Under the pieces are notes generated by a model, which saw only the letters and a program-made list of their open reading frames with translations, was not told the origin of the DNA and searched no databases. Position numbers and translations under genes: made by a program. A DNA stretch of 64,000 bases from Mesoflavibacter sp. (GTDB lineage: Bacteria > Pseudomonadota > Alphaproteobacteria > UBA8366 > Aestuariispiraceae). The stretch lies in assembly GCA_017792345.1 (NCBI GenBank), contig CP051228.1:2944148-3008147 (forward strand). The letters run 5' to 3'. Shown here in pieces: positions 24,214 to 35,386 of the stretch; position 1 is the first letter of the stretch; every line of letters begins with the position of its first letter.

Positions 24214-25143
24214 TCACTCGACGGCGTAGTCCGTCTTGAAGCCACCCTTCTTGTTCAGCTCAAACTTGCCGTCCTGGACGGCATAGAGCCAGGCGGCGGA
24301 TTTCTTCAGGCCGCCGAGCGGGTAGAGATGGCTCTGAACGATGCCGCAGCTGGGGTCCGTCGCCTTGTAGACAGCCAAGTCCCGGATCAGCTTGTCCGGC
24401 TCGCTGACGCTCATCAGCTTGGCGACGTTGCGGGCCTGTTTGGCGATGAAGCGCATGGAGTTGCCGATACCGCAGGCCTGGGCGTGCTTCATCAGCGTCT
24501 TGATCGTGGCCAGGCCCGGGATGCCGATATGGATCGGCAACTCGTTGCCTTCGGCGCGGATCTTACGGTCCCAGACGATCAGCGGCTCGGCCTCGAAGCA
24601 GAACTGCGTCGCGATATAGAAATGCATCGGGCTCTGCTTGGCATAGGCGTTCTTGTCCAGCATGGCGCGAACGACCTCGGCTTCCGGAATGTCCGGGCTG
24701 CCTTCCGGGTGACCGGCGACGCCCAGGCTCTTGATGCCGTACTTCTCGAACAGGCCGAGGCGCAGAATCTGCATCGATTCCGTGAACTCACCGACCGGGT
24801 TGTCGACCCCGCCGCCGATCAGCAGTGCTTCCTCGACGCCCGTCTCGGCGGTCAGCATCTTCAGGTTCTCTTCGAAGAAGGCCTTGGACGGAATGGACCG
24901 CGCCGCGAAATGCGGCACCGGGCGCATGCCCTGATCCTTCAGCTTCTTGACCGTCGTGACCGTGTCGCGGAAATCGGAGCTCGGCAGAAAGGTGACATAG
25001 ACGATCTGGTTGTCGCGCAGGACTTCACGGAAGTCCTCGATCTTGGCAGCCCCGCCCGGCGTGACTTCCAGGGTGGTCGTGCTCATGAAATCGATGATCT
25101 GGTCGACCTCGGACATGGTCTTGGGCTCCGTCATGGCGCGCAC
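24214..25143 (-). CDS. Methylenetetrahydrofolate reductase family protein (second copy)
   Basis: The 309-residue MTHFR-like TIM barrel is distinct from the canonical metF at 29289-30155. It keeps family elements such as HFAARS, a substrate-strand LLIGGGVDNPVGEF, GVAGHPEGSPD, and IATQFCFEAEPLIVWDR in place of the MetF QFFFD loop. It is the last gene of the corrinoid operon, 21 bp after the activase. It may reduce methylene-THF or run the reverse direction, oxidising methyl-THF produced from methylated substrates. That direction is inference. The alternative start MTEPKT lies 9 bp downstream. Confidence 0.83.
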   Translation of the reverse strand: MRAMTEPKTMSEVDQIIDFMSTTTLEVTPGGAAKIEDFREVLRDNQIVYVTFLPSSDFRDTVTTVKKLKDQGMRPVPHFAARSIPSKAFFEENLKMLTAETGVEEALLIGGGVDNPVGEFTESMQILRLGLFEKYGIKSLGVAGHPEGSPDIPEAEVVRAMLDKNAYAKQSPMHFYIATQFCFEAEPLIVWDRKIRAEGNELPIHIGIPGLATIKTLMKHAQACGIGNSMRFIAKQARNVAKLMSVSEPDKLIRDLAVYKATDPSCGIVQSHLYPLGGLKKSAAWLYAVQDGKFELNKKGGFKTDYAVE

Positions 25144-25164
25144 TTTCGTCGAACGAGTTGGATC

Positions 25165-27237
25165 CTAACCGCGCCGACGCCGACGACGGCCGCCACCCTC
25201 TCCCGAACCGGGATCGGATGCCGCCTTCTTTTCGGGCAATTGGACTGCTTTCTCCAAGTTCGGAAACGGCGCAGTTTTGTGCGGGAACGCCATCGCCCCA
25301 ACAAAATGCTCCTGAAAGCGGGGTTCGACCGCCGTTTCGACCTTTTCGATCCGGGTCACCAGTTCCTTGATCTCGTTCCGGGCCTGACGGTTCAGGAGCG
25401 CGATGCGCGCGCCGGTGCCTGCCGCGTTGCCGACCGACGCGACCATGTCCAGCGGACAGTCGGGGATCAGGCCCAGAACCATCGCGTATTTCGCGTCGAT
25501 ATGGCTTCCGAAGGCACCGGCCAGAACGACCCGCTCCACCGGCTTGCCCAGCTTGTCGACCAGAAGCTGCGCCCCGGCATAGAGCGCCGCCTTGGCAAGC
25601 TGGATCGCCCGGACATCGGCCTGGGTCACGCGGATCTCCGGCTCGCCGCGATGCAGGATGTAGGAGAAGGTCCGGCCTTCCGGTACGACCCGGTCGGATT
25701 TCTGCGCCATGGACCCGTCGATGATGCCGTCTTCGGTGATCAGCCCGGCCAGGAACATTTCCGCCAGGACCTCGATGATCCCCGAGCCGCAGATGCCGGA
25801 CACGCCGATCCTCTTGGTGGAGTCGGCGAACCCTTCGTCGTTCGACCACAGGTCGGACCCGATGACCTTGAATCGGGGTTCCAGGTTCTCCGGATCGATT
25901 CGCACGCGCTCGATGGCGCCGGGCGCCGCGCGCTGACCGGACGAAATCTGCGCGCCTTCCAGCGCCGGTCCGGTCGGGCTGGAACAGGCCAGCAGACGTT
26001 CTTTGTTCCCCAGCACGATTTCCGCATTGGTGCCGACATCGACGACCAGGGTCACCTCGTCGCGATACTGGGGTCCTTCGGCCAGAACCACGGCGGCGCA
26101 ATCGGCACCGACATGACCGGCGACGCAGGGCAGGAAATAGGCCCGCGCGCCCGGATTGACTTTGCCTTTGAGATCCAGCTCTGCCGCCGACACGCGCAGC
26201 GACTGGTTGGTGGCCAGCGCGAAGGGCGCCCAGCCCAGTTCGGTCGGATCGACGCCCAGGATCAGGTGATGCATGATCGGGTTGCCGACGAGCACCAGTT
26301 CCAGAATGTCATTCGGGTCGACCATCGCCTCGGTCGCGGCCTGGACCAGCAGATAGCCCAGCGTCTCGCGCACGGCATTGGTCATCTCGGCGTCGCCGCC
26401 CGGATTCATCATCACATAGCTGACCCGGCTCATCAGATCCTCGCCGAAGCGGATCTGCGGGTTCATCGCCCCGACGGAGTTCACGACTTCGCCGGTTTGC
26501 AGGTCGGTCAGGTGGACCGACATGGTGGTCGACCCGACATCGACGGCGCAGCCGAAGGCCTTCTCGTGGAATCCGGGCCAGACATGGACCAGCTTGTGCC
26601 CGTTGCGGACCGCCGCGGTGACCTTCCATTCGCCTTTGCGCAGGGCCTTCTGCAGCCCTTGCAGCACCGGCAGGTCGGCGCGGTCGACAGTCAGGTCCCA
26701 CTGCTCCTTCAGGGCCTTCTCCAGCCGCTCCAGATCGCCGGACGGGTGGTGCATGTCGGGCTCTTCGACCTCGACATAATGCAGGCGGACGATGGGATCG
26801 ATTTCGATATTGCGCACTTCCGCGCGCTTGCGGACGACCTGTTTATGAACCTGGCTGTCCGCAGGGATGTCGATGACCAGATCGCCGTGGATGAAGCTGG
26901 AGCAGCCGAGACGCCGGTCGTCCTTCATCCCGCGCTTCTGCTTGTACCGGTCTTCGACCTTGCCGAATTCGGAAACGTTTTCCGGCTTGCTCTTGACCTT
27001 GAACTTGGAGAAATCGCCGATACCCGGCACGACCTGGCAGCGGCCGCAGATGCCGCGCCCGCCACAGACGGAATCGAGATCGACACCCAATTGACGCGCG
27101 GCCTGGAGTATCGGCGTGCCTACCGGAAAATCGCCGCGTTTCCCGGAAGGGGTGAAGACGACATGGGCCGTCTTCACGTTTTCCTGGGATGATCCATCGC
27201 TCGTCGTGCTTGCGTCGGCCGGGTCGATATCCGCCAT
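25165..27237 (-). CDS. Corrinoid activation protein: [2Fe-2S] ferredoxin + ASKHA ATPase (RamA/DUF4445-like)
   Basis: The 690-residue reductive activator returns cob(II)alamin to cob(I)alamin on corrinoid proteins. The N-terminal plant-type ferredoxin domain has Cys58, Cys64, Cys67 and Cys112 (CGGRGICGRC and RRLGCSSF). A linker and middle domain follow, then an ASKHA ATPase with phosphate motifs AFGCAVDVGSTTMSVHL, LVVDVGTNAEIVLG and VVLAGAFGSHID. The C-terminus ends in six consecutive arginines after a Gly-rich linker. Neighbours are the methyl-THF:corrinoid methyltransferase (60 bp upstream) and the second MTHFR (21 bp downstream). A 954-residue shadow frame on the other strand is not real. 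Confidence 0.9.
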   Translation of the reverse strand: MADIDPADASTTSDGSSQENVKTAHVVFTPSGKRGDFPVGTPILQAARQLGVDLDSVCGGRGICGRCQVVPGIGDFSKFKVKSKPENVSEFGKVEDRYKQKRGMKDDRRLGCSSFIHGDLVIDIPADSQVHKQVVRKRAEVRNIEIDPIVRLHYVEVEEPDMHHPSGDLERLEKALKEQWDLTVDRADLPVLQGLQKALRKGEWKVTAAVRNGHKLVHVWPGFHEKAFGCAVDVGSTTMSVHLTDLQTGEVVNSVGAMNPQIRFGEDLMSRVSYVMMNPGGDAEMTNAVRETLGYLLVQAATEAMVDPNDILELVLVGNPIMHHLILGVDPTELGWAPFALATNQSLRVSAAELDLKGKVNPGARAYFLPCVAGHVGADCAAVVLAEGPQYRDEVTLVVDVGTNAEIVLGNKERLLACSSPTGPALEGAQISSGQRAAPGAIERVRIDPENLEPRFKVIGSDLWSNDEGFADSTKRIGVSGICGSGIIEVLAEMFLAGLITEDGIIDGSMAQKSDRVVPEGRTFSYILHRGEPEIRVTQADVRAIQLAKAALYAGAQLLVDKLGKPVERVVLAGAFGSHIDAKYAMVLGLIPDCPLDMVASVGNAAGTGARIALLNRQARNEIKELVTRIEKVETAVEPRFQEHFVGAMAFPHKTAPFPNLEKAVQLPEKKAASDPGSGEGGGRRRRRRG

Positions 27238-27297
27238 TTCCGTTCGTGTTCCTCCGGGGGTCGGTACGCGCTTGGATGAATGAGGGAAAAGCGCCGG

Positions 27298-28212
27298 CTA
27301 CGCGGCCGGACGGCGGCGGCGGCGTTCGCCGCGCGCACCGCGCGCGCCCTGCACCTCGCCTTCCGGGGCCGGCTCGCGGAAGCGGCGGATCCAGGCGGCG
27401 CAATCCTTGTCGTGGCCGGCGACGACGTCGGCACCCCAAATGGCGTGCATTTCCTGTTCGTGAAGCGGGTTCATGATGGCGCTGGTCATACCCGCGCCGA
27501 CCGCCATGGACAGGAAGGCGCCGTTCAGGCCGTGCCGGTTCGGCAGGCCGAAGCTCAGGTTCGACGCGCCACAGGTCGTGTTGACCTTCAGCTCGCCATG
27601 CAGGCGGCGGATCAGGTTCAGGGCACCGACACCGGCATTGCCCAGGGCGCCAACCGGCATGACCAGCGGATCGATGACGACGTCGCAGGCCGGAATGCCG
27701 TAATCGGCGGCGCGCTCGACAATTTTCTTGGCGACTTCGAAGCGGACGTCCGGATCTTCGGAGATACCGGTCTCGTCGTTGGAAATGCCGACGACCGCGC
27801 AATTGTATTTCTTCACCAGCGGCAGCACGACTTCCAGTCGCTCTTCTTCGCCAGTGACGGAGTTCAGCAGCGGGCGGCCTTCATAGGCCTCCAGGCCGCG
27901 CTCCAGGGCCTCGACGATGGAGCTGTCGATGCACAGCGGCACATCGGTCAGGGACTGAACCAGCTTGATTGCCTTGGCGAGAATGTCCGGTTCGTCGGCC
28001 AGCGGAATGCCCGCATTGACATCCAGCATATGGGCGCCCGCCGCGACCTGGGCCAAGGCGTCCTTTTCGACCGTCTCGAAATTGTACTCCTTCATTTCCG
28101 CGGCCAGCTTCTTGCGGCCGGTCGGATTGATCCGTTCGCCGATTACGGTGAACGGCTTGTCGAAGCCGATGATATGCGTCTTGGTTTTCGATTCGAGGAC
28201 GGTCTGGGTCAT
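27298..28212 (-). CDS. Methyltetrahydrofolate:corrinoid methyltransferase (pterin-binding)
   Basis: The 304-residue pterin-binding TIM barrel is of the AcsE/MtgA/MetH-THF-domain type. It moves a methyl group between methyl-THF and the cobalt of a corrinoid protein. Signatures are IGERINPTGRKK near residue 25, GAHMLDVNAGIP near 60, PLCIDSS near 95, NSVTGEEER near 115, DPLVMPVG near 160, and GASNLSFGLPNR near 202. The protein ends with GARGARGERRRRRPAA, an Arg-rich tail. ATG 28212 is favoured over GTG 28221 because AGGAAG lies 8 bp in front of it. Confidence 0.9.
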   Translation of the reverse strand: MTQTVLESKTKTHIIGFDKPFTVIGERINPTGRKKLAAEMKEYNFETVEKDALAQVAAGAHMLDVNAGIPLADEPDILAKAIKLVQSLTDVPLCIDSSIVEALERGLEAYEGRPLLNSVTGEEERLEVVLPLVKKYNCAVVGISNDETGISEDPDVRFEVAKKIVERAADYGIPACDVVIDPLVMPVGALGNAGVGALNLIRRLHGELKVNTTCGASNLSFGLPNRHGLNGAFLSMAVGAGMTSAIMNPLHEQEMHAIWGADVVAGHDKDCAAWIRRFREPAPEGEVQGARGARGERRRRRPAA

Positions 28213-28390
28213 TGTGCTCACTTCCTTAAGGCATGTGCGGCGGCGCGGCCGGATCCCGGTGGCGCCTCATGGGGCAATCGGCTTCATGCGGTGATACATA
28301 ACCCAGCACGCGCAGGCGAACAGCGCGACCGCGCCTCATAACGTCGGAATCGCGCCGTTCTGTTTTCCTGCGCCGGGGCAAGCGGTTGCG

Positions 28391-29284
28391 TCAGACCGAT
28401 TCTGCTTGCCGGGCCGCGATTTTGGCGGGGGTGTCCGCCTTGGGAAACCGGGTCCAGCTGGACACCGGTTCGATCTCGTCGACGATGTGTTCGTCCCGTA
28501 CCCAGCCCAGAACAGGCCGGTAGCCGTCTTCCGCGCGGTCCCGCAGCATGGCGTCCAAGGTCGCCGTATGCTCCGGCAGGGATCCGCCGCCGATCAGATT
28601 GACCGTTCCGTCGCGCAAGGCGGCGTCCAGCCAGGCGGCGCGGCGTGCGTCGCCGGGGCGGAACTGCACGATGCCGTCGGCGGAGTCCAGCGTCCGCGGA
28701 CCGAAGCGGGGGCCGCCGTCGACGCGCTGCAACAGGATGGAAACGTGGCTTCGCAGTTTGGCGCGGGCCTTGCGCGCCCCTTCCAGCATGGCCTGGATGC
28801 GGCCGACGCCGGGCAGGACGTCCAGCAGCAATCCGTCGGCACCGCCGGCGATCAGGCCTTCCGCCTGCACGGCGACCGCGGCCTCAACTTCGCCCGGGGG
28901 CACGTCCCAGCCGTCGTCGCGCAGCACGCCAAGGACGAACCGGCGGCGGCCGTGACCGGGGATGCTGTCGACCGCCTCGGTCGCGGCTTCAGCGGCTTTG
29001 AAGTTGATGATGAAGGCCTCGTCTTCCAAACCGTGTGCCCGGAGCGTCAAAGGATTGGCCCGCAGACTGTTGGTGCGCACGATGTCCGCGCCCGCTTTCA
29101 GGAAGGCCTTATGGACGGCCTTGATCTTATCGTAGCGCGTCAGGTTCAGGACTTCCGCGCATTCCCCGGCGCCGAAGAAATCGCGTTCGGCATCGAGATC
29201 CAGTTCGGGAAGCTTCAACTCCCGCGTGATCGACCCATCGGTCAGAAGGACCCGGTTGGTCAGAGCGTCGGTGATGGTTCGCAT
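28391..29284 (-). CDS. Homocysteine S-methyltransferase family protein lacking the zinc cysteines
   Basis: The 297-residue barrel belongs to the BHMT/MmuM/MetH-homocysteine-domain family: LLTDGSITREL at the N-terminus, GADIVRTNSLRANP near residue 65, and the NLIGGGSLPEH region near 229 where the zinc-binding GGCCG should be. The two adjacent cysteines there are GG, the third ligand (usually in a GVNC strand) is also missing (QFRPGD near 207), and the protein has a single cysteine (42) elsewhere. Zinc-thiolate chemistry with homocysteine therefore seems impossible as in known members. It sits between metF and the pterin methyltransferase. Confidence 0.8.
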   Translation of the reverse strand: MRTITDALTNRVLLTDGSITRELKLPELDLDAERDFFGAGECAEVLNLTRYDKIKAVHKAFLKAGADIVRTNSLRANPLTLRAHGLEDEAFIINFKAAEAATEAVDSIPGHGRRRFVLGVLRDDGWDVPPGEVEAAVAVQAEGLIAGGADGLLLDVLPGVGRIQAMLEGARKARAKLRSHVSILLQRVDGGPRFGPRTLDSADGIVQFRPGDARRAAWLDAALRDGTVNLIGGGSLPEHTATLDAMLRDRAEDGYRPVLGWVRDEHIVDEIEPVSSWTRFPKADTPAKIAARQAESV

Positions 29285-29288
29285 GGGA

Positions 29289-30155
29289 TTACGCAGCCTC
29301 CTCAGTGGCGGGGAAGGGGAACGGGACCGATTGCGGCACGCCGAGCGCCCGCGCGATGGTCATTGCATCACGGGTTCGGTTCAGAGTGTAGAGGTGAATG
29401 TGATCGACGCCCTCGGCGGCCAGTCGCTCGCCCAGGGACACTGTCGTCGCGACGGACAGGGTTCGAACCGTCTCGGGATCGTTTTCCAATCCGGCAAACC
29501 GCGCGTCGAGCCAAGCCGGCACGGTCGCGCCGCAGCCGTCGGCGAATTTGTGCAGACCGTCCAGCGAGGCGATCGGCAGCAGCCCTGGGACGATCGGCTT
29601 TTCAATCCCGGCCGCAATGCATTCGTCTCGGAACCGCAGAAACAGGTCCAGATCGAAGAAGAACTGGGTGATCGCATGCGAGGCGCCGCCGTCCAACTTG
29701 CGCTTCAGATGAGCGATCTCAGCCGCGCGGGAGGTGGATTTCGGGTGTCCCTCGGGATAGCAGGCCACCCCGATATCGAACCCGCCGATTCCGGCCAAGG
29801 CTTCGGTCAGTTCCGCCGCACAGGCGAATTCGCCCGACCCAACCGGCGGGGCGTCGCCGCGCAGGGCGACCAAGCGTCGGATGCCTTTAGCTTTCCAGGA
29901 CCGGGCCAGGGCAAGAATTTGGTCCTTCGGCTGCCCGGTCGCGGTCAGGTGGGCTGCAATGGACCCGGCGAAACCGGCATCGCACAGCGCGTTCAGAGCC
30001 GTTTCGCTGCGATCCCGCCCGGAGCCCGACGCGCCATAGGTGACCGAGACATGGCTGCCGGTGCCGGCCAGAGCCCGGACCCCGCCGACGAACTTATCGG
30101 ACGTGCCTGACTTCGGGGGAAAGACCTCGAAGCTGATATAGAGGGACGACGTCAT
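29289..30155 (-). CDS. metF: 5,10-methylenetetrahydrofolate reductase
   Basis: MetF reduces methylene-THF to methyl-THF using FAD and NAD(P)H. The 288-residue product starts SLYISFEVFPPK (catalytic Glu). It continues with VSVTYGASGSGRDRS near residue 35, HLTATGQ near 75, LRGDAPP near 105, YPEGHP near 137 and the substrate loop ITQFFFDLDLFLRF near 170, all expected of the family. ATG 30155 overlaps the stop of the SahR-like gene (ATGA), and the zinc-less HMT homologue starts 4 bp after its stop. It is part of the sahR operon. Confidence 0.9.
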   Translation of the reverse strand: MTSSLYISFEVFPPKSGTSDKFVGGVRALAGTGSHVSVTYGASGSGRDRSETALNALCDAGFAGSIAAHLTATGQPKDQILALARSWKAKGIRRLVALRGDAPPVGSGEFACAAELTEALAGIGGFDIGVACYPEGHPKSTSRAAEIAHLKRKLDGGASHAITQFFFDLDLFLRFRDECIAAGIEKPIVPGLLPIASLDGLHKFADGCGATVPAWLDARFAGLENDPETVRTLSVATTVSLGERLAAEGVDHIHLYTLNRTRDAMTIARALGVPQSVPFPFPATEEAA

Positions 30156-31114
30156 GCGACAGCTTCCTTCTCGGCTTGGGCTTTGCGGGCGGTCCAGACA
30201 CAAACGGTCAGGGCGCCGCCTTCCAGGCGGGTGACATTGGTATCGATGAAGCCGGCGCCGGCCAGCCAGTCCCAAATCTGCTCATCCTTGAACCCGGGCC
30301 AGCGATGGGCATGTTCGGCGCGCAGCTCCGCCAGATTGTGGCGGGCGAAATCGACGATCACGATGCGGCCGTCGTCGGACAGAGCGCGGGCGGCCTCGGT
30401 TAGTGCCTGTAGCGGGTCGTCCGAATAGTGCAACACCATGTGCAGGACAGCGGTGTCGAAGTCACCGTCGCCGCAGGGGATCTGGTACATGTCGGCCTGA
30501 CGCACCTGGCAATGGTCCAGACCGTCACGTTCAATGGCCGCGCGGGCGACCCGCAGCATGTCGGCGGACAGGTCGATGCCGACGGCGCTGGTGGCGCGCG
30601 GTCCGAAGAATTCCAGCAGTTTGCCGGTTCCGGTGCCGATATCCAGCAGGCGCCCCAGCGGCCAACCGGTGGTTACCTGGTTCAGGCATTCCGTCAGGGC
30701 CGATTCGTCGACATGCAGGGCGCGAATGCGGTCCCATTGTTCGGCATTGCGTTTGAAATAAGCGGCGGCTTCGGCGTCGCGTTTGCGGCGCAGCCGATCC
30801 AGCCGTTCCAGGTCGCGCGACAGGACCGCATCGTCCAAGGGCAGCAGGTCGAGAACCGCGCCGGCGAAGGCCGCAGGTCCGGCCTCGTCCGCCGCGCTGC
30901 CGGCCAAGCGATAACGCGCCCAGGTGCCTTCCTGATAGCGGGCCAGGACGCCGCCCTCGACCAGAAGCTTCAAGTGACGGGACAGGCGCGGCTGGCTTTG
31001 GCCCAGCAGACCGACCAGGTCGCTGACGGTCAATTCGGAATGGGCGACGAGGTTCAGAATCCGAAGCCGGGTCGGTTCCGCCACCGCGCGCATTGCCTGT
31101 AAAAGCCGTTCCAT
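30152..31114 (-). CDS. SahR-like ArsR regulator fused to a SAM-dependent methyltransferase domain
   Basis: Residues 1-75 form an ArsR winged helix (VAEPTRLRILNLVAHSELTVSDLVGLLGQSQPRLSRHLKLL). Residues about 120-310 are a class I methyltransferase with LLDIGTGTGKLLEFF (157-170) and GIDLSADML. This fusion is the architecture of SahR, an S-adenosylhomocysteine-responsive repressor of methionine-cycle genes in Proteobacteria. ATG 31114 has GGAGAG in front. A palindrome at 31139-31158 lies directly upstream and is the likely autoregulatory operator. It heads the metF/corrinoid operon. Confidence 0.87.
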   Translation of the reverse strand: MERLLQAMRAVAEPTRLRILNLVAHSELTVSDLVGLLGQSQPRLSRHLKLLVEGGVLARYQEGTWARYRLAGSAADEAGPAAFAGAVLDLLPLDDAVLSRDLERLDRLRRKRDAEAAAYFKRNAEQWDRIRALHVDESALTECLNQVTTGWPLGRLLDIGTGTGKLLEFFGPRATSAVGIDLSADMLRVARAAIERDGLDHCQVRQADMYQIPCGDGDFDTAVLHMVLHYSDDPLQALTEAARALSDDGRIVIVDFARHNLAELRAEHAHRWPGFKDEQIWDWLAGAGFIDTNVTRLEGGALTVCVWTARKAQAEKEAVA

Positions 31115-31294: not shown

Positions 31295-32296
31295 ATGAGC
31301 TTTGTTATCAGTCCGACTGCGAAGGTCTTGCACGCGGCGACCGTGATGGTTGCAGCAGCGGTCATTTGGTTCTTGGCGATCGTTCCGGCACGCGCCGAAC
31401 CGGCCAAGGTTGAGGTCGGCATTTTCGTCTCATCCGTCTACGACCTCGACTTCTATGAAGAGACCTTTCAGGCCATCGTGTGGCTGTGGTTCGTCCATGA
31501 CGATCCGCAGTTCGATCCGCTGGATTCGATCGAGTTCACTAATGCGCGGGAATACGAGCGTCTGGAAAGCTATGGCCGTTTTCGCGAGGACGGGCGGCGC
31601 TATGTGGCCGCGAAGTACCGGCTTCTGGTGAATCAGGGTTGGGATCTGGCCGATTTCCCCTTCGATCGCCAGGAGCTGGAGATTGTCCTGGAAAGCGTCG
31701 GTCGGGACGCGTCGCAGTTGGAATTCGTATTCGATGGGGCCAATTCGGTTCTAGCGCAGGATCTGACGCTGAACGGCTGGTCACCGGGACCGGTTCGCGG
31801 CGAGCCGAAAGTGTTCACCTATAACACCACCTTCGGCGAGGAATCGACGGAGCTGCTGTCCTTCCCCCGGGTCGAGTTCTCCGTGCCGCTGAAGCGGGAC
31901 AATCCGAAACTCTTCTTCGAGGCCTATATCGGCTATCTGATCGCGGTTCTGATGTGCGCGACGATCTGGCTGACCTCTGCCTCGGGCATGCCCGATTACC
32001 GGATCGGCATGATCCTGGCGGCGATCTTCTCGTCGATCGGCAACAAGCATGTGCTGGAAAGCAACTATCCGTCCTCCCCGACCCTCGGCCTGGCCGATCA
32101 TTTGGAAATCAGTACCTTCCTTCTGATCGCCGCCTCGATGGTTCTGTCCGTCGGTTGTGAAAGATTGCACCTGATCGGGCGCGACCGCCTGGCGCGGCGA
32201 CTGAATTTTGTCGGCATACCCATTCTGTTGGCGGTCTATGCGATTTTCTTCATCGTCTTTGTGACGGCGGCGGCGACCGGCGGAAGCGCCCGATGA
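31295..32296 (+). CDS. Prokaryotic pentameric ligand-gated ion channel homologue
   Basis: The 333-residue protein has a signal peptide or signal anchor (residues 1-35), a beta-sandwich-like extracellular domain (about 38-205) and four membrane helices (about 207-228, 235-254, 268-288, 303-326), the pLGIC topology. The Cys-loop-region hallmark WDLADFPFDRQELEI (116-130) is present without the cysteines, as in bacterial members. The M2-M3 segment KHVLESNYPSSPTLGL (251-266) aligns by eye with the GLIC stretch around VETNLPKTP. It would gate ions across the inner membrane upon binding a periplasmic ligand. Its stop overlaps the next gene's ATG. Confidence 0.78.
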   Translation: MSFVISPTAKVLHAATVMVAAAVIWFLAIVPARAEPAKVEVGIFVSSVYDLDFYEETFQAIVWLWFVHDDPQFDPLDSIEFTNAREYERLESYGRFREDGRRYVAAKYRLLVNQGWDLADFPFDRQELEIVLESVGRDASQLEFVFDGANSVLAQDLTLNGWSPGPVRGEPKVFTYNTTFGEESTELLSFPRVEFSVPLKRDNPKLFFEAYIGYLIAVLMCATIWLTSASGMPDYRIGMILAAIFSSIGNKHVLESNYPSSPTLGLADHLEISTFLLIAASMVLSVGCERLHLIGRDRLARRLNFVGIPILLAVYAIFFIVFVTAAATGGSAR

Positions 32297-33858
32297 ACGG
32301 GGCGGGGCGTCGCGGTCTGATCGTCGTCGACCGGTCGGATCACGGGTCGTCGGTCGTGCTGGACGACACGGTCCGACGCGGCGTCGCGGACATGATGGAT
32401 GGAACGGACCTGGCGGAAAGGGACGACCGCCGCTTCGGCACCGAAGACCGGGTGGTCATCACGTCCGAGAATGTGTTGGACACGGTCCTGCAACGACTGG
32501 ACGACCCGGCGCGCGCGGATCTGATCGACGCGCTGAAGAACAAGCATCGCTGCCGGGAAATGCTGACGGCGCGCTATCCAGATTTCTATTACGGCATGGT
32601 GCCCTTGGATCGGCTGACCGACCTCAAGCTGCCGTCGGGACGCCGCTTCGTCATCAAACCGAACCGGGGGTACTTCGCGACCGCCATCAAGATCGTCGAT
32701 GCCGACAGCGACCTGGCGGCGATCCGGGACGAGATGGCGGCCGAAATCCGAAAGAACGGCGCGGTCTTCGCCAGTACGGTCCTGTCGGACGCGGACGTCA
32801 TCGTCGAGGAGTTCATCGACGGTGAGGAATATGCGGTCGACATGTTCTATGACGGCGCCGGAAAGCCGGTGATCGTGAACATCTATCACCATCCGATCCC
32901 GGAGAACCCGGACTATCTGCACGCCCTGTATTACACCAGCAAGCCGGTCTTCGACCGACTGCACGGTGAGCTTACGGAATGGTTCGCGAGCCTGAACGAA
33001 ACCCTGGGCGCACGGGCCTTCCCGATCCACGGCGAATTCAAGCTGGGCGCCAAAGGGCTGGTTCCGGTTGAACTCAACCCCCTGCGTTTCGGCGGCGATG
33101 GGCTTATCGATCTGGCCTTCCACGCTTTCGGCCTCAATCCCTACGACGCGTTTTTCAACGACCGGGCGCCGGACTGGCCCGCAATCTGGCAGGGGCGGGA
33201 GGAGAAGATCTATACCTGGATGATGGGCTATGTCGGCACCGATGTGGACGTGTCGTCCCACCGTCCCGATCACGGCGCGTTCCAGAGCCTGTTTTCCAAC
33301 ATCCTCAGCGACACTCTGCTGAATTACGAAGCGCATCTGGGCTTTTCCGTCGTCTATGCCGAAGAGAGCGATATCGATGCGGTGCATCGGCTGGTGAACA
33401 CCGATTTCCAGAAGTTCTTTCGCGAGACGACGGCGTTTTCGGAAGACGCGCTTGCTGAATTGTATCGGAACGGTGTGCGCCTGCAGATCGCGGCGGGCGA
33501 CTATGTCTGGCACGAAGGCGATGTCGGCGATTTTGTCCTGCTGGTGATCGAGGGCGGTCTGGACGTCATGCACCGCAACGCAAAGGGGCAGGAAGTCTAT
33601 CTGGATACGATCGGACAGCGGTCGGTTGTCGGCGAATACGCGGTCATCGACGGCCGCCCGCGCTCTGCCGGCGTACGGGGCGGGAAGGACGGCTGCACCG
33701 CGATGAAGGTCAGCGGCGAGGCTTTCCGCAAGCTGTTGCGGGACGCACCGGGCCTGTTCGAGGAACTGTACTGGCAGCAGCAGATGCGCATCCGCAAGAT
33801 GAACGCGCGGATCGGCGATCTGGAAGCGGAGCTGGCGGCCCTTCGGGCCGGGGGCTAA
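32293..33858 (+). CDS. ATP-grasp protein fused to a cyclic-nucleotide-binding domain
   Basis: The 521-residue cytoplasmic fusion has an ATP-grasp domain in residues about 60-300: a nucleotide lysine in RRFVIKPNRGYFAT (118-130), the hinge VIVEEFIDGEEYAVDMFYD, and a metal/phosphate strand LVPVELNPLRFGGDG with Glu260 and Asn262. Residues about 390-495 are a CRP-type cNMP domain whose phosphate-binding cassette is GEYAVIDGRPRS (448-459), with Glu449 and Arg458 conserved. A short coiled coil ends the protein. ATP-grasp enzymes ligate a carboxylate to an amine or thiol; the substrate is unknown. It overlaps the channel gene by 4 bp (ATGA) and converges with the TerB-like gene. Confidence 0.8.
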   Translation: MNGAGRRGLIVVDRSDHGSSVVLDDTVRRGVADMMDGTDLAERDDRRFGTEDRVVITSENVLDTVLQRLDDPARADLIDALKNKHRCREMLTARYPDFYYGMVPLDRLTDLKLPSGRRFVIKPNRGYFATAIKIVDADSDLAAIRDEMAAEIRKNGAVFASTVLSDADVIVEEFIDGEEYAVDMFYDGAGKPVIVNIYHHPIPENPDYLHALYYTSKPVFDRLHGELTEWFASLNETLGARAFPIHGEFKLGAKGLVPVELNPLRFGGDGLIDLAFHAFGLNPYDAFFNDRAPDWPAIWQGREEKIYTWMMGYVGTDVDVSSHRPDHGAFQSLFSNILSDTLLNYEAHLGFSVVYAEESDIDAVHRLVNTDFQKFFRETTAFSEDALAELYRNGVRLQIAAGDYVWHEGDVGDFVLLVIEGGLDVMHRNAKGQEVYLDTIGQRSVVGEYAVIDGRPRSAGVRGGKDGCTAMKVSGEAFRKLLRDAPGLFEELYWQQQMRIRKMNARIGDLEAELAALRAGG

Positions 33859-34610
33859 GCGTTATCCTTCAGATAGGCCAATTCGATGGCGTGCAGCGCC
33901 TCGTTGTTGTGGATCACACCGTCGGCCTCGATCAGGCGCTTGATGCTGTCGCGCAGATTGTCCAGCGCGTCGGTACCGTCGGTATCCACAATGGCTTTCG
34001 CGGCGCCCATCATCGAGTCGGAATCCGGATAAAGGCGGCGCACCACTTCCCATAGATCGTCCGGATCGACCGCATCGTCGCCATAGGTCTGGGTTATGTA
34101 ATCCAGCAGGACGGAGCGCTCCGCCGGGTGCAGATACCCGTCACAGCGCGAGAAGAACATCAGCACGGTCAATTCGTGACGGGCCGCGCGCAGCAAGGCC
34201 CGCGCTGCGGTTTCCGTTTCATCCGTACCGGGCTTGTCGAATCGAAACCAGTCCAGGAAGGCCTCCGGCGAGGAGTAGGTACCGACCGCGCCGTGCGGGT
34301 CGAGAATCCGTTCAATGCGTTGAAAGTCGAACCGCCGCAATTCCCGCCGGACATGGCAATAGGCGTTCAAGCTGGGCGTATCGCTGTGTGGATCGGCGGA
34401 GACCAATGTGATGCGGCGCACGCTCCAATGGCCGTTCTCATCGCGATATTCGATAATGGCTCCGGCTGGAAGATAGTGGCGCGTTCCGCCACTCGTCTCC
34501 AGCATGGCGGGGTGGTCCTCCTCCGGCAATTCTTCGACGATGCTGCCCGGCAGCGGCGGCCGCGGCGCATTGGCGACCTTGCCGGCGATCTTTTCCAGTT
34601 CATTCAGCAT
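33855..34610 (-). CDS. WYL-like plus TerB-like domain protein
   Basis: The 251-residue protein appears to combine a WYL-like SH3 beta-barrel (residues about 40-110; AGAIIEYRDENGHWSVRRITL followed by LNAYCHVRRELRRFDFQRIERI) with a C-terminal helical TerB-like domain (ARHELTVLMFFSRCDGYLHPAERSVLLDYI). WYL domains sense ligands and TerB domains bind metal in membrane-stress systems. ATG 34610 has GAGGGTGG in front. The open frame extends another 390 bp upstream over the divergent gene but in unlikely, Arg/Pro-rich sequence. Function unknown. Confidence 0.7.
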   Translation of the reverse strand: MLNELEKIAGKVANAPRPPLPGSIVEELPEEDHPAMLETSGGTRHYLPAGAIIEYRDENGHWSVRRITLVSADPHSDTPSLNAYCHVRRELRRFDFQRIERILDPHGAVGTYSSPEAFLDWFRFDKPGTDETETAARALLRAARHELTVLMFFSRCDGYLHPAERSVLLDYITQTYGDDAVDPDDLWEVVRRLYPDSDSMMGAAKAIVDTDGTDALDNLRDSIKRLIEADGVIHNNEALHAIELAYLKDNA

Positions 34611-34780
34611 GCGTGCCACCCTCAGGTCTAACGATCGATCGCTTGTCACCCTATTAAACACGCGCCGCCCGGTCTGTTCCATGGCTTTGTCGCCAAGCCA
34701 GTGCGGGTTACGGACTTGCGCGGTCGTCGGGGCGCGGCCTATAGGCATTGGCCGCTTCTGTGATGGGAGGAAACTTGCCG

Positions 34781-35386
34781 ATGGCACGGGCCAGAAATCT
34801 GGCAAAGACGATGCGCTTGCTGCGGGGGGTCCCGCTGCCTTGGCTGATCGGGGTGGTTCTGGCCTACCTGTTTGCCTCTGCCGCGCTCGCCTCGCTGCTG
34901 GATCGGCTTGTCGGGTGGTCCGGCCTGTTCCGTTCAGCGGTCGACGCTTGGCCGTTTTCAAACTTATGGAACGGTCTCGTTTTGGCTGGCTTGTTCGCAA
35001 CGGTTGTCTTTGCCTCGCTGCTGAAGGCGGAATACCGAACCTTTGCCTTTCTGACTCGCCAGAACATCACCAATGTCTTCGGCAGTCGGGGCCCAGACCC
35101 GAAATCCGATTTCCGGCGCCGGACGATTGTCTTCGGCCTGACCTGCGCGGTCTATGTGATGGGGGCCGCAGTCGCCATCAGCATTGCCCCCGACACCGCC
35201 GGCTTCGTGCTGTATTTTTCTCTGACTTATGCGCTCGTCGCCGCCACGCTGTTCCGGCAGATTCGAAAACGCGACATTGCGGCACTGCCCTTGCTCAGCC
35301 GAGTAGAGGTCGCTGCGGTGATCGCGTCGCCCTGGATCGTCATAGGCACCGTCGGCAGTCTTGCTTTGGTGAATTGGATGTTTTGA
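34781..35386 (+). CDS. Integral membrane protein of unknown function
   Basis: The 201-residue protein has about five transmembrane segments (residues about 20-41, 60-80, 117-138, 141-158, 178-198), separated by short basic loops, and no recognised domain. ATG 34781 has a strong GGAGG ribosome site 10 bp upstream. It is divergent from the TerB-like gene and convergent with the CPBP protease. Confidence 0.65.
   Translation: MARARNLAKTMRLLRGVPLPWLIGVVLAYLFASAALASLLDRLVGWSGLFRSAVDAWPFSNLWNGLVLAGLFATVVFASLLKAEYRTFAFLTRQNITNVFGSRGPDPKSDFRRRTIVFGLTCAVYVMGAAVAISIAPDTAGFVLYFSLTYALVAATLFRQIRKRDIAALPLLSRVEVAAVIASPWIVIGTVGSLALVNWMF

Follow-up and report, generated by a model that had tools for sequence, protein, structure and literature searches.

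The genomic partners described for bacterial pentameric ligand-gated ion channels (pLGICs) are, in the available excerpts of two sources, small-molecule-binding domains (PMC549065) or, for ELIC, a decarboxylase (PMC3119659). The ELIC excerpt presents this Erwinia chrysanthemi protein as an amine-gated channel whose gene adjoins that of an amino-acid decarboxylase, and its authors suggested that the neighbouring enzyme may process the ligand (PMC3119659). The excerpt of Tasneem et al. (2004) gives PBP-I, PBP-II, Cache or MCP-N domains as partners, joined to the channel by operon or fusion (PMC549065). The locus considered here resembles that of ELIC, as excerpted, in that a pLGIC gene lies beside a gene for a putative amino-acid-handling enzyme; it differs in that the enzyme is an ATP-grasp ligase rather than a decarboxylase and carries a cyclic-nucleotide domain, of which the excerpt makes no mention for ELIC's enzyme (PMC3119659). 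Whereas the partners in the excerpt of Tasneem et al. bind small molecules and are read as acting on the ligand side, the partner here is an enzyme predicted to lie in the cytosol; neither ATP-grasp nor cyclic nucleotide occurs as a term in the main text of that article (PMC549065). No published pairing of a prokaryotic ligand-gated ion channel with an ATP-grasp protein was found in the open-licence literature, in agreement with the original prediction that none had been described. The same literature yielded no joint mention of an L-amino acid ligase with cyclic nucleotide binding and no description of the fused ligase-cNMP architecture, and in an article that names both ATP-grasp and cyclic nucleotide-binding domains, the available passages place them in different systems. 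Among the papers listed, none was a relevant neighbourhood study of bacterial pLGICs. The pair is real, rare and built from known parts. Its layout in the window, the whole 64,000-nucleotide stretch of DNA that was analysed, is as follows.

31295..32296, + strand: pLGIC-type channel subunit P0001, 333 aa, with an N-terminal helix read as a signal peptide, a beta-sandwich ectodomain and four transmembrane helices (ORF, domain searches, AlphaFold model, Foldseek)
31655..31666, + strand: FPFD Pro-loop motif, P0001 residues 121-124 (coordinates computed from the ORF start)
31991..32071, + strand: M2 pore-helix region, P0001 residues 233-259 (PDYRIGMILAAIFSSIGNKHVLESNYP), from the alignment to GLIC
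32293..32296, + strand: ATGA overlap of the P0001 stop and P0002 start codons
32293..33858, + strand: P0002, 521 aa, ATP-grasp (L-amino acid ligase-like) plus cyclic-nucleotide-binding domain, read as cytosolic
32647..33102, + strand: ATP-grasp domain, P0002 residues 119-270 (Pfam match), with conserved K122, E248, E260, N262 and R265
33484..33741, + strand: cyclic-nucleotide-binding domain, P0002 residues 398-483, with the phosphate-binding cassette at residues 445-463
33748..33852, + strand: C-terminal long helix, P0002 residues 486-520, with no helix-turn-helix (HTH) after it

The two open reading frames lie on the same strand with the four-base ATGA overlap noted in the original prediction, from which we infer that they probably share one transcript; a promoter scan upstream of the pair gave one weak match against 0.8 expected. 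Downstream, on the opposite strand, lies a 381-aa open frame (33855-35000, - strand); TerB matched it weakly (0.018, below cut-off), and NCBIfam gave nothing for it up to E 0.1.

That P0001 has a pLGIC fold, as was originally proposed, is well supported by structure prediction. Its AlphaFold model (pLDDT 86.7, from a 19-row alignment) combines a beta-rich ectodomain with four long helices (205-226, 233-257, 266-293 and 297-327), and an additional N-terminal helix (7-29) is read as a signal peptide. Foldseek returned 1107 PDB matches to the model at E<=0.001, the best being GLIC (6f0m_A, E 1.9e-19, TM 0.73/0.77), with glycine-receptor and GABA-A-receptor channel structures also matched, and a P0001 profile searched against PDB sequences reached GLIC at about 1e-41. 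From the single sequence alone the assignment is weak: Neur_chan_LBD (PF02931) in Pfam was matched at 2.4e-4, its 21 bits falling short of the cut-off of 26, and Neur_chan_memb was not matched; LGIC_1 in NCBIfam was matched at 2.9e-10, with 40 bits where the cut-off is 500. ELIC sequences, several labelled GABA receptor subunit, were also matched near 3e-4. The paired channel of locus L005 passes the PF02931 cut-off of 26 with 43.8 bits, and that of L050 falls just below it with 25.8. The FPFD at residues 121-124, pointed out originally, fits the aromatic-P-aromatic-D pattern of the Pro-loop. GLIC, the proton-gated channel of Gloeobacter, shares with P0001 the fold, the Pro-loop, the four transmembrane helices and an M2 that aligns without gaps from 0' to 23'; it differs in its M2 pore residues and is 16-18% identical among the matches listed. 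A second, more canonical pLGIC is encoded in the same genome (G000:C1:242187-243335; L002:979-2133); it is 18% identical to P0001, matches Neur_chan_LBD at 8.1e-26 and Neur_chan_memb over the cut-off, and has no enzyme nearby.

P0002 joins an ATP-grasp domain to a cyclic-nucleotide-binding domain, as had been claimed: both Pfam matches are above cut-off (ATP-grasp_4, PF13535, 9.8e-38; cNMP_binding, PF00027, 1.4e-14, 54.3 bits against 27.5). The enzyme can now be placed more specifically than in the original prediction, since the solved structures it most resembles are those of L-amino acid ligases. A profile of the ATP-grasp part (375 positions, 15 proteins) matched only BL00235 (3vot, 9.5e-11) and RizA (4wd3, 0.021) among PDB sequences up to E 0.1. 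In a Foldseek search with the AlphaFold model (pLDDT 85.5), the top five rows, from two proteins, were all L-amino acid ligases with moderate TM scores (0.49-0.51 by query, 0.55-0.62 by target); below them came mainly carboxylases and enzymes of purine synthesis. Both searches place P0002 nearer to these ligases than to any other ATP-grasp enzyme whose structure has been solved. BL00235 (3vot), BacD/YwfE (3vmm, 3wnz, 3wo1) and RizA (4wd3) share with it the ATP-grasp fold and catalytic-region motifs, whereas identity to these ligases is 11-16% and the cNMP domain lies outside the profile match. Twelve checked positions, which we take to be nucleotide and metal residues, are identical in all 15 aligned proteins. 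In NCBIfam, P0002 gave weak, sub-cut-off matches to several ATP-grasp families. A RimK-like or tubulin-ligase-like protein modifier was considered and set aside, L-amino acid ligases being the sole PDB profile matches up to E 0.1; among the relatives scanned, TTL matched a single one, L009, which lacks the cNMP domain, and did so below cut-off (0.0019).

The phosphate-binding cassette of P0002, VVGEYAVIDGRPRSAGVRG, contains E448 and R457, both of which are present in 5/5 fused proteins; the Glu and Arg of such cassettes hold ribose and phosphate. Like the sensor half of CRP, the catabolite activator, P0002 has a cNMP domain with this cassette followed by a long helix, which would stand at the position of the CRP dimerisation helix. 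Unlike CRP, P0002 has an enzyme at its N-terminus and lacks an HTH: none was matched at E<=1, and the protein ends in the helix at 486-520, on which ground a CRP-like regulator was rejected. The genome carries 14 class III cyclase-domain matches, all over cut-off, making a source of cyclic nucleotide plausible.

The most economical reading of the pair, to which we give a probability of about 0.4, is a small sense-and-respond unit in which detection of an amino compound outside by the channel and handling of a related one inside by the ligase belong to a single response. Five copies of P0001 would assemble in the inner membrane into a pLGIC that exposes its ligand domain to the periplasm and is opened by a small ligand, an amine or amino-acid-like compound being the likeliest. 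In the cytosol, P0002 would bind a cyclic nucleotide, probably cAMP, through its CRP-like sensor and dimerisation helix; this would switch its activity, and its ATP-grasp domain would couple a carboxylate with an amine, two amino acids being the likeliest pair. In this way the channel would signal the presence of a compound outside, and the enzyme would produce, consume or remove that compound or a relative of it inside. The predicted folds, the intact ATP-grasp and cassette residues, the overlap, the adjacency kept in both orders and the signs of purifying selection are results; that P0001 conducts, what its ligand and the substrate of P0002 are, that a cyclic nucleotide controls P0002 and that the two proteins are coupled in any way are what we infer in proposing this scheme. 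As excerpted, ELIC, amine-gated and encoded beside an amino-acid enzyme, supplies a precedent (PMC3119659). Against the scheme we count the moderate structural match to the ligases, the dependence of the reversed arrangement described below on one contig of a metagenome-assembled genome (MAG), a cNMP-less enzyme family with no stable neighbour, related channels that have no enzyme, a fused enzyme in a Nostocales genome where no channel was found, the unusual residues of M2, and a quick enzyme tree that left the fused enzymes as an open fork. The original prediction put forward a similar mechanism, in which a ligand would open the channel, a cyclic nucleotide would tune the enzyme and the enzyme's product might be the channel's ligand.

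A different use of the same parts would be clearance, with the putative ligase substrate being the channel's own ligand, so that an amine or amino acid is trapped as an amide or dipeptide and the signal ends. This would mirror the suggestion made for ELIC, in which the adjacent decarboxylase processes the ligand, and it draws on the amino-acid ligases as nearest solved enzymes and on the excerpted account of ELIC as opened by primary amines and adjoining an amino-acid decarboxylase gene. However, since it is ions that pass through pLGICs, the ligand would have to enter the cell in some other way, and the cNMP domain is left without explanation. We regard clearance as somewhat unlikely.

Recurrence of the pair bears on whether its members belong together at all. 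Among the matches listed by E-value, the whole enzyme was found in 3/144 relatives: the source genome (G000), G003 and G001. A close channel was found in the same three, and a fourth genome (G056) gave only a remote channel match of 19% identity. Within the source genome's genus, both genes are present and adjacent in three of the six genomes searched, and neither was found in the other three, which include two draft assemblies (100 and 320 contigs). The pair occupies the same chromosomal place in all three carriers, beside a folate/methionine gene block. The ATGA overlap is kept in G003; in G001 it is replaced by a 39-base gap and a GTG start. Rough dN/dS ratios (NG86; dS >1 throughout) of 0.12 against G003 and 0.28 against G001 for the channel, and of 0.10 and 0.17 for the enzyme, are signs of purifying selection on both genes. 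The one-carbon block beside the pair (window 24331-30275, - strand) encodes a RACo-type corrinoid activator, a pterin-binding protein, a homocysteine S-methyltransferase and two MTHFR-family proteins, and its DNA is kept beside the pair in two related genomes.

A peptide-pattern scan with P0002, whose recall is limited to close relatives, covered the genome_contigs collection of 84,980 species and gave at least 16 relatives among 80 candidate stretches listed. One is the Pacificispira spongiicola locus with the pair (L003), the same record as G001. Another, on a gammaproteobacterial MAG contig (L005), has a fused enzyme of 43% identity followed on the same strand by a channel gene, so that the order is reversed; this contig is 5,215 bases long with a labelled coverage of 1.5, its taxonomic bin may be wrong, and the channel runs off its end with the ectodomain alone visible. 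The third, from a Nostocales genome (L004), is also a fused enzyme, and no channel was found in that genome at E 0.001, so the enzyme can apparently work without a channel and the pairing is not obligatory for it. Near this enzyme are a glutamine-synthetase-family gene, a SET-domain gene and a PhyH dioxygenase gene, neighbours that are compatible with amide chemistry and prove nothing. The other 13 of the 16 listed relatives match to about residue 381, their open frames being fragments or too short for a cNMP domain. Channel matches were found in the genomes of 3/16 listed relatives: L003, L005 and an Aquimarina genome, where the match is remote and on another contig. Conserved adjacency of the channel and the fused enzyme, for which a neighbourhood survey had been suggested, is therefore well supported and extends to a distant genome with the order reversed. 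Neither outcome that would have counted against the original prediction, a model lacking the pLGIC fold or a failure to find the homologues adjacent in other genomes, was observed. Carriage as plasmid or viral cargo was rejected: a plasmid search gave no match at 1e-20, and 35 pattern-matching stretches in viral contigs included 0 relatives.

The channel profile matched 41/398 genomes of the phylum, and 32 other channel loci (L085-L113, L002, L051 and L052; the remote Aquimarina match, L056, is outside this set) served as a control. Neither the enzyme family nor a P0002-like cNMP protein was found near these channels at E 1e-3 (0/32 loci). Because 20/32 loci had <500 bases on one side, the control was repeated with wider stretches, again with 0/32; in this repeat 25/32 loci had >=1 kb on both sides, 7 were cut by contig ends, and the positive controls (L123, L124 and L005) were found in 3/3 cases. 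The enzyme profile matched 1/398 genomes in the phylum, the source genome itself; 1/185 in the MAG's class, the MAG itself; 5/109 in the MAG's order, strongly in the MAG alone and in four partially at about 1e-11; 2/196 in the order of the Aquimarina genome; and 26/292 in the phylum and 2/95 in the order of the Nostocales genome, both counts including that genome. The other open frames in these last two sets, of 376-422 aa, are too short for the fused form. For the cNMP-less enzyme, 42 loci were compared over flanking stretches of some 1.5 to 6 kb that stop where a contig ends, with Pfam run on chosen neighbours. Besides the enzyme itself, no cluster recurs in more than 5 of the 42, although certain neighbours, an LptC-related gene among them, repeat in 4 close loci. 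In the phylum of the Nostocales genome, 25 small genomes (1.7-2.1 Mb) among the 292 sampled carry a cNMP-less ATP-grasp relative (L063-L081 cover 19/25), and in 5/25 the match contains one in-frame stop.

The control loci also held channel-type genes of other kinds. L085:1498-2700, L087:1498-2634, L088:1240-2355 and L089:1387-2583 form a channel-like branch with Glu in place of Asp in the Pro-loop (VPIE or APLE) and with PRFSLP.AAFFGAVANSYVANSILPPSG as the M2 sequence in 4/4. Two differing channel-type genes adjoin convergently at L088:1240-2355 and L088:2365-3375, and two overlap on one strand at L085:1498-2700 and L085:2681-4057, the second within a 782-aa open frame. L099:298-2418 and L100:91-2406 (707 and 772 aa) carry an N-terminal periplasmic-binding-protein domain before the channel part; PBP-I fusions to bacterial pLGICs of this kind are described in the available excerpt of PMC549065.

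In a careful tree of the ATP-grasp part alone, the five fused enzymes form one clade (93/83) and the four channel-linked enzymes a weak subclade within it (87/50); a quick tree left the fused enzymes as an open fork. The careful tree omits seven loci (duplicates L062 and L082; fragment or remote L018 and L058-L061), and 6/26 enzyme matches from the phylum of the Nostocales genome are absent from the locus set. The channels of the four paired loci form one clade (99/94) inside an eight-member subfamily (99/98), which makes the MAG-linked channel, represented by its ectodomain alone, the closest relative found of the genus's channels; the channel trees omit L103, which is split by a stop, and L084, which duplicates the window locus. 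These trees and counts bear on the suggestion that the two genes merely neighbour each other and move together with no common function. The rare, patchy distribution speaks for it, as do the Nostocales enzyme without a detected channel and the related channels without the enzyme (0/32 loci). However, adjacency and both clades are kept although gene order differs between two classes, and genus members have either both genes (3/6) or neither (3/6). We consider such an operon of convenience unlikely. Two such rare genes would not be expected to adjoin by chance in two classes and in both orders.

The pore region raises a further question about the channel half of the proposed sense-and-respond unit. 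In the alignment to GLIC, which runs from 0' to the Pro at 23', the M2 residues of P0001 are D-2', R0', G2', A6', F9', G13', K15' and E19', in what we take to be the appropriate prime numbering. GLIC is also acidic at -2', and an acidic residue at this position would go with cation selectivity. Other residues, such as the F at 9' and the K at 15', are unusual, so conduction is not assured. P0001 might instead be a non-conducting sensor of pLGIC fold with the ATP-grasp enzyme as its cytosolic partner, a reading in keeping with the unusual M2 (G2', A6', F9', G13', K15') and with the G-N-K at 13'-15' common to 5/7 members of the P0001 subfamily whose M2 is visible. We find it quite unlikely, as P0001 retains Asp at -2', Arg at 0' and the proline of the M2-M3 turn, and the model matches the channel structures of GLIC, glycine receptors and GABA-A receptors.

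A bolder version of the pairing, which we judge decidedly improbable, is a transmitter-receptor unit in one operon, consisting of a cyclic-nucleotide-controlled dipeptide or amide synthetase and a pLGIC gated by its product or substrate; if it were true, a prokaryotic pLGIC would gain a cytosolic signalling partner defined by genetics. The autocrine form, in which the ligase product is exported and acts as the channel's agonist to give a bacterial transmitter-receptor pair, is very improbable: it accords with the four-base overlap in two genomes, the conserved adjacency and the small amino compounds that homology suggests as enzyme products, but no exporter is seen with the conserved pair: the flanking genes scanned at the window-type loci are not those of the MAG contig, which itself ends inside the channel gene.

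The available portion of a 2016 inventory gives no biological role as known for the pLGIC of any unicellular organism (PMC4795631). The recurrence of this rare pair in a distant bacterium, in reversed order, hints at a purpose for bacterial pLGICs. A conserved cyclic-nucleotide-binding amino-acid ligase as partner would leave amines, amino acids and small peptides as the agonists to consider, and it makes the question of the channel's role testable, with the substrates and products of the ligase as the candidate agonists.
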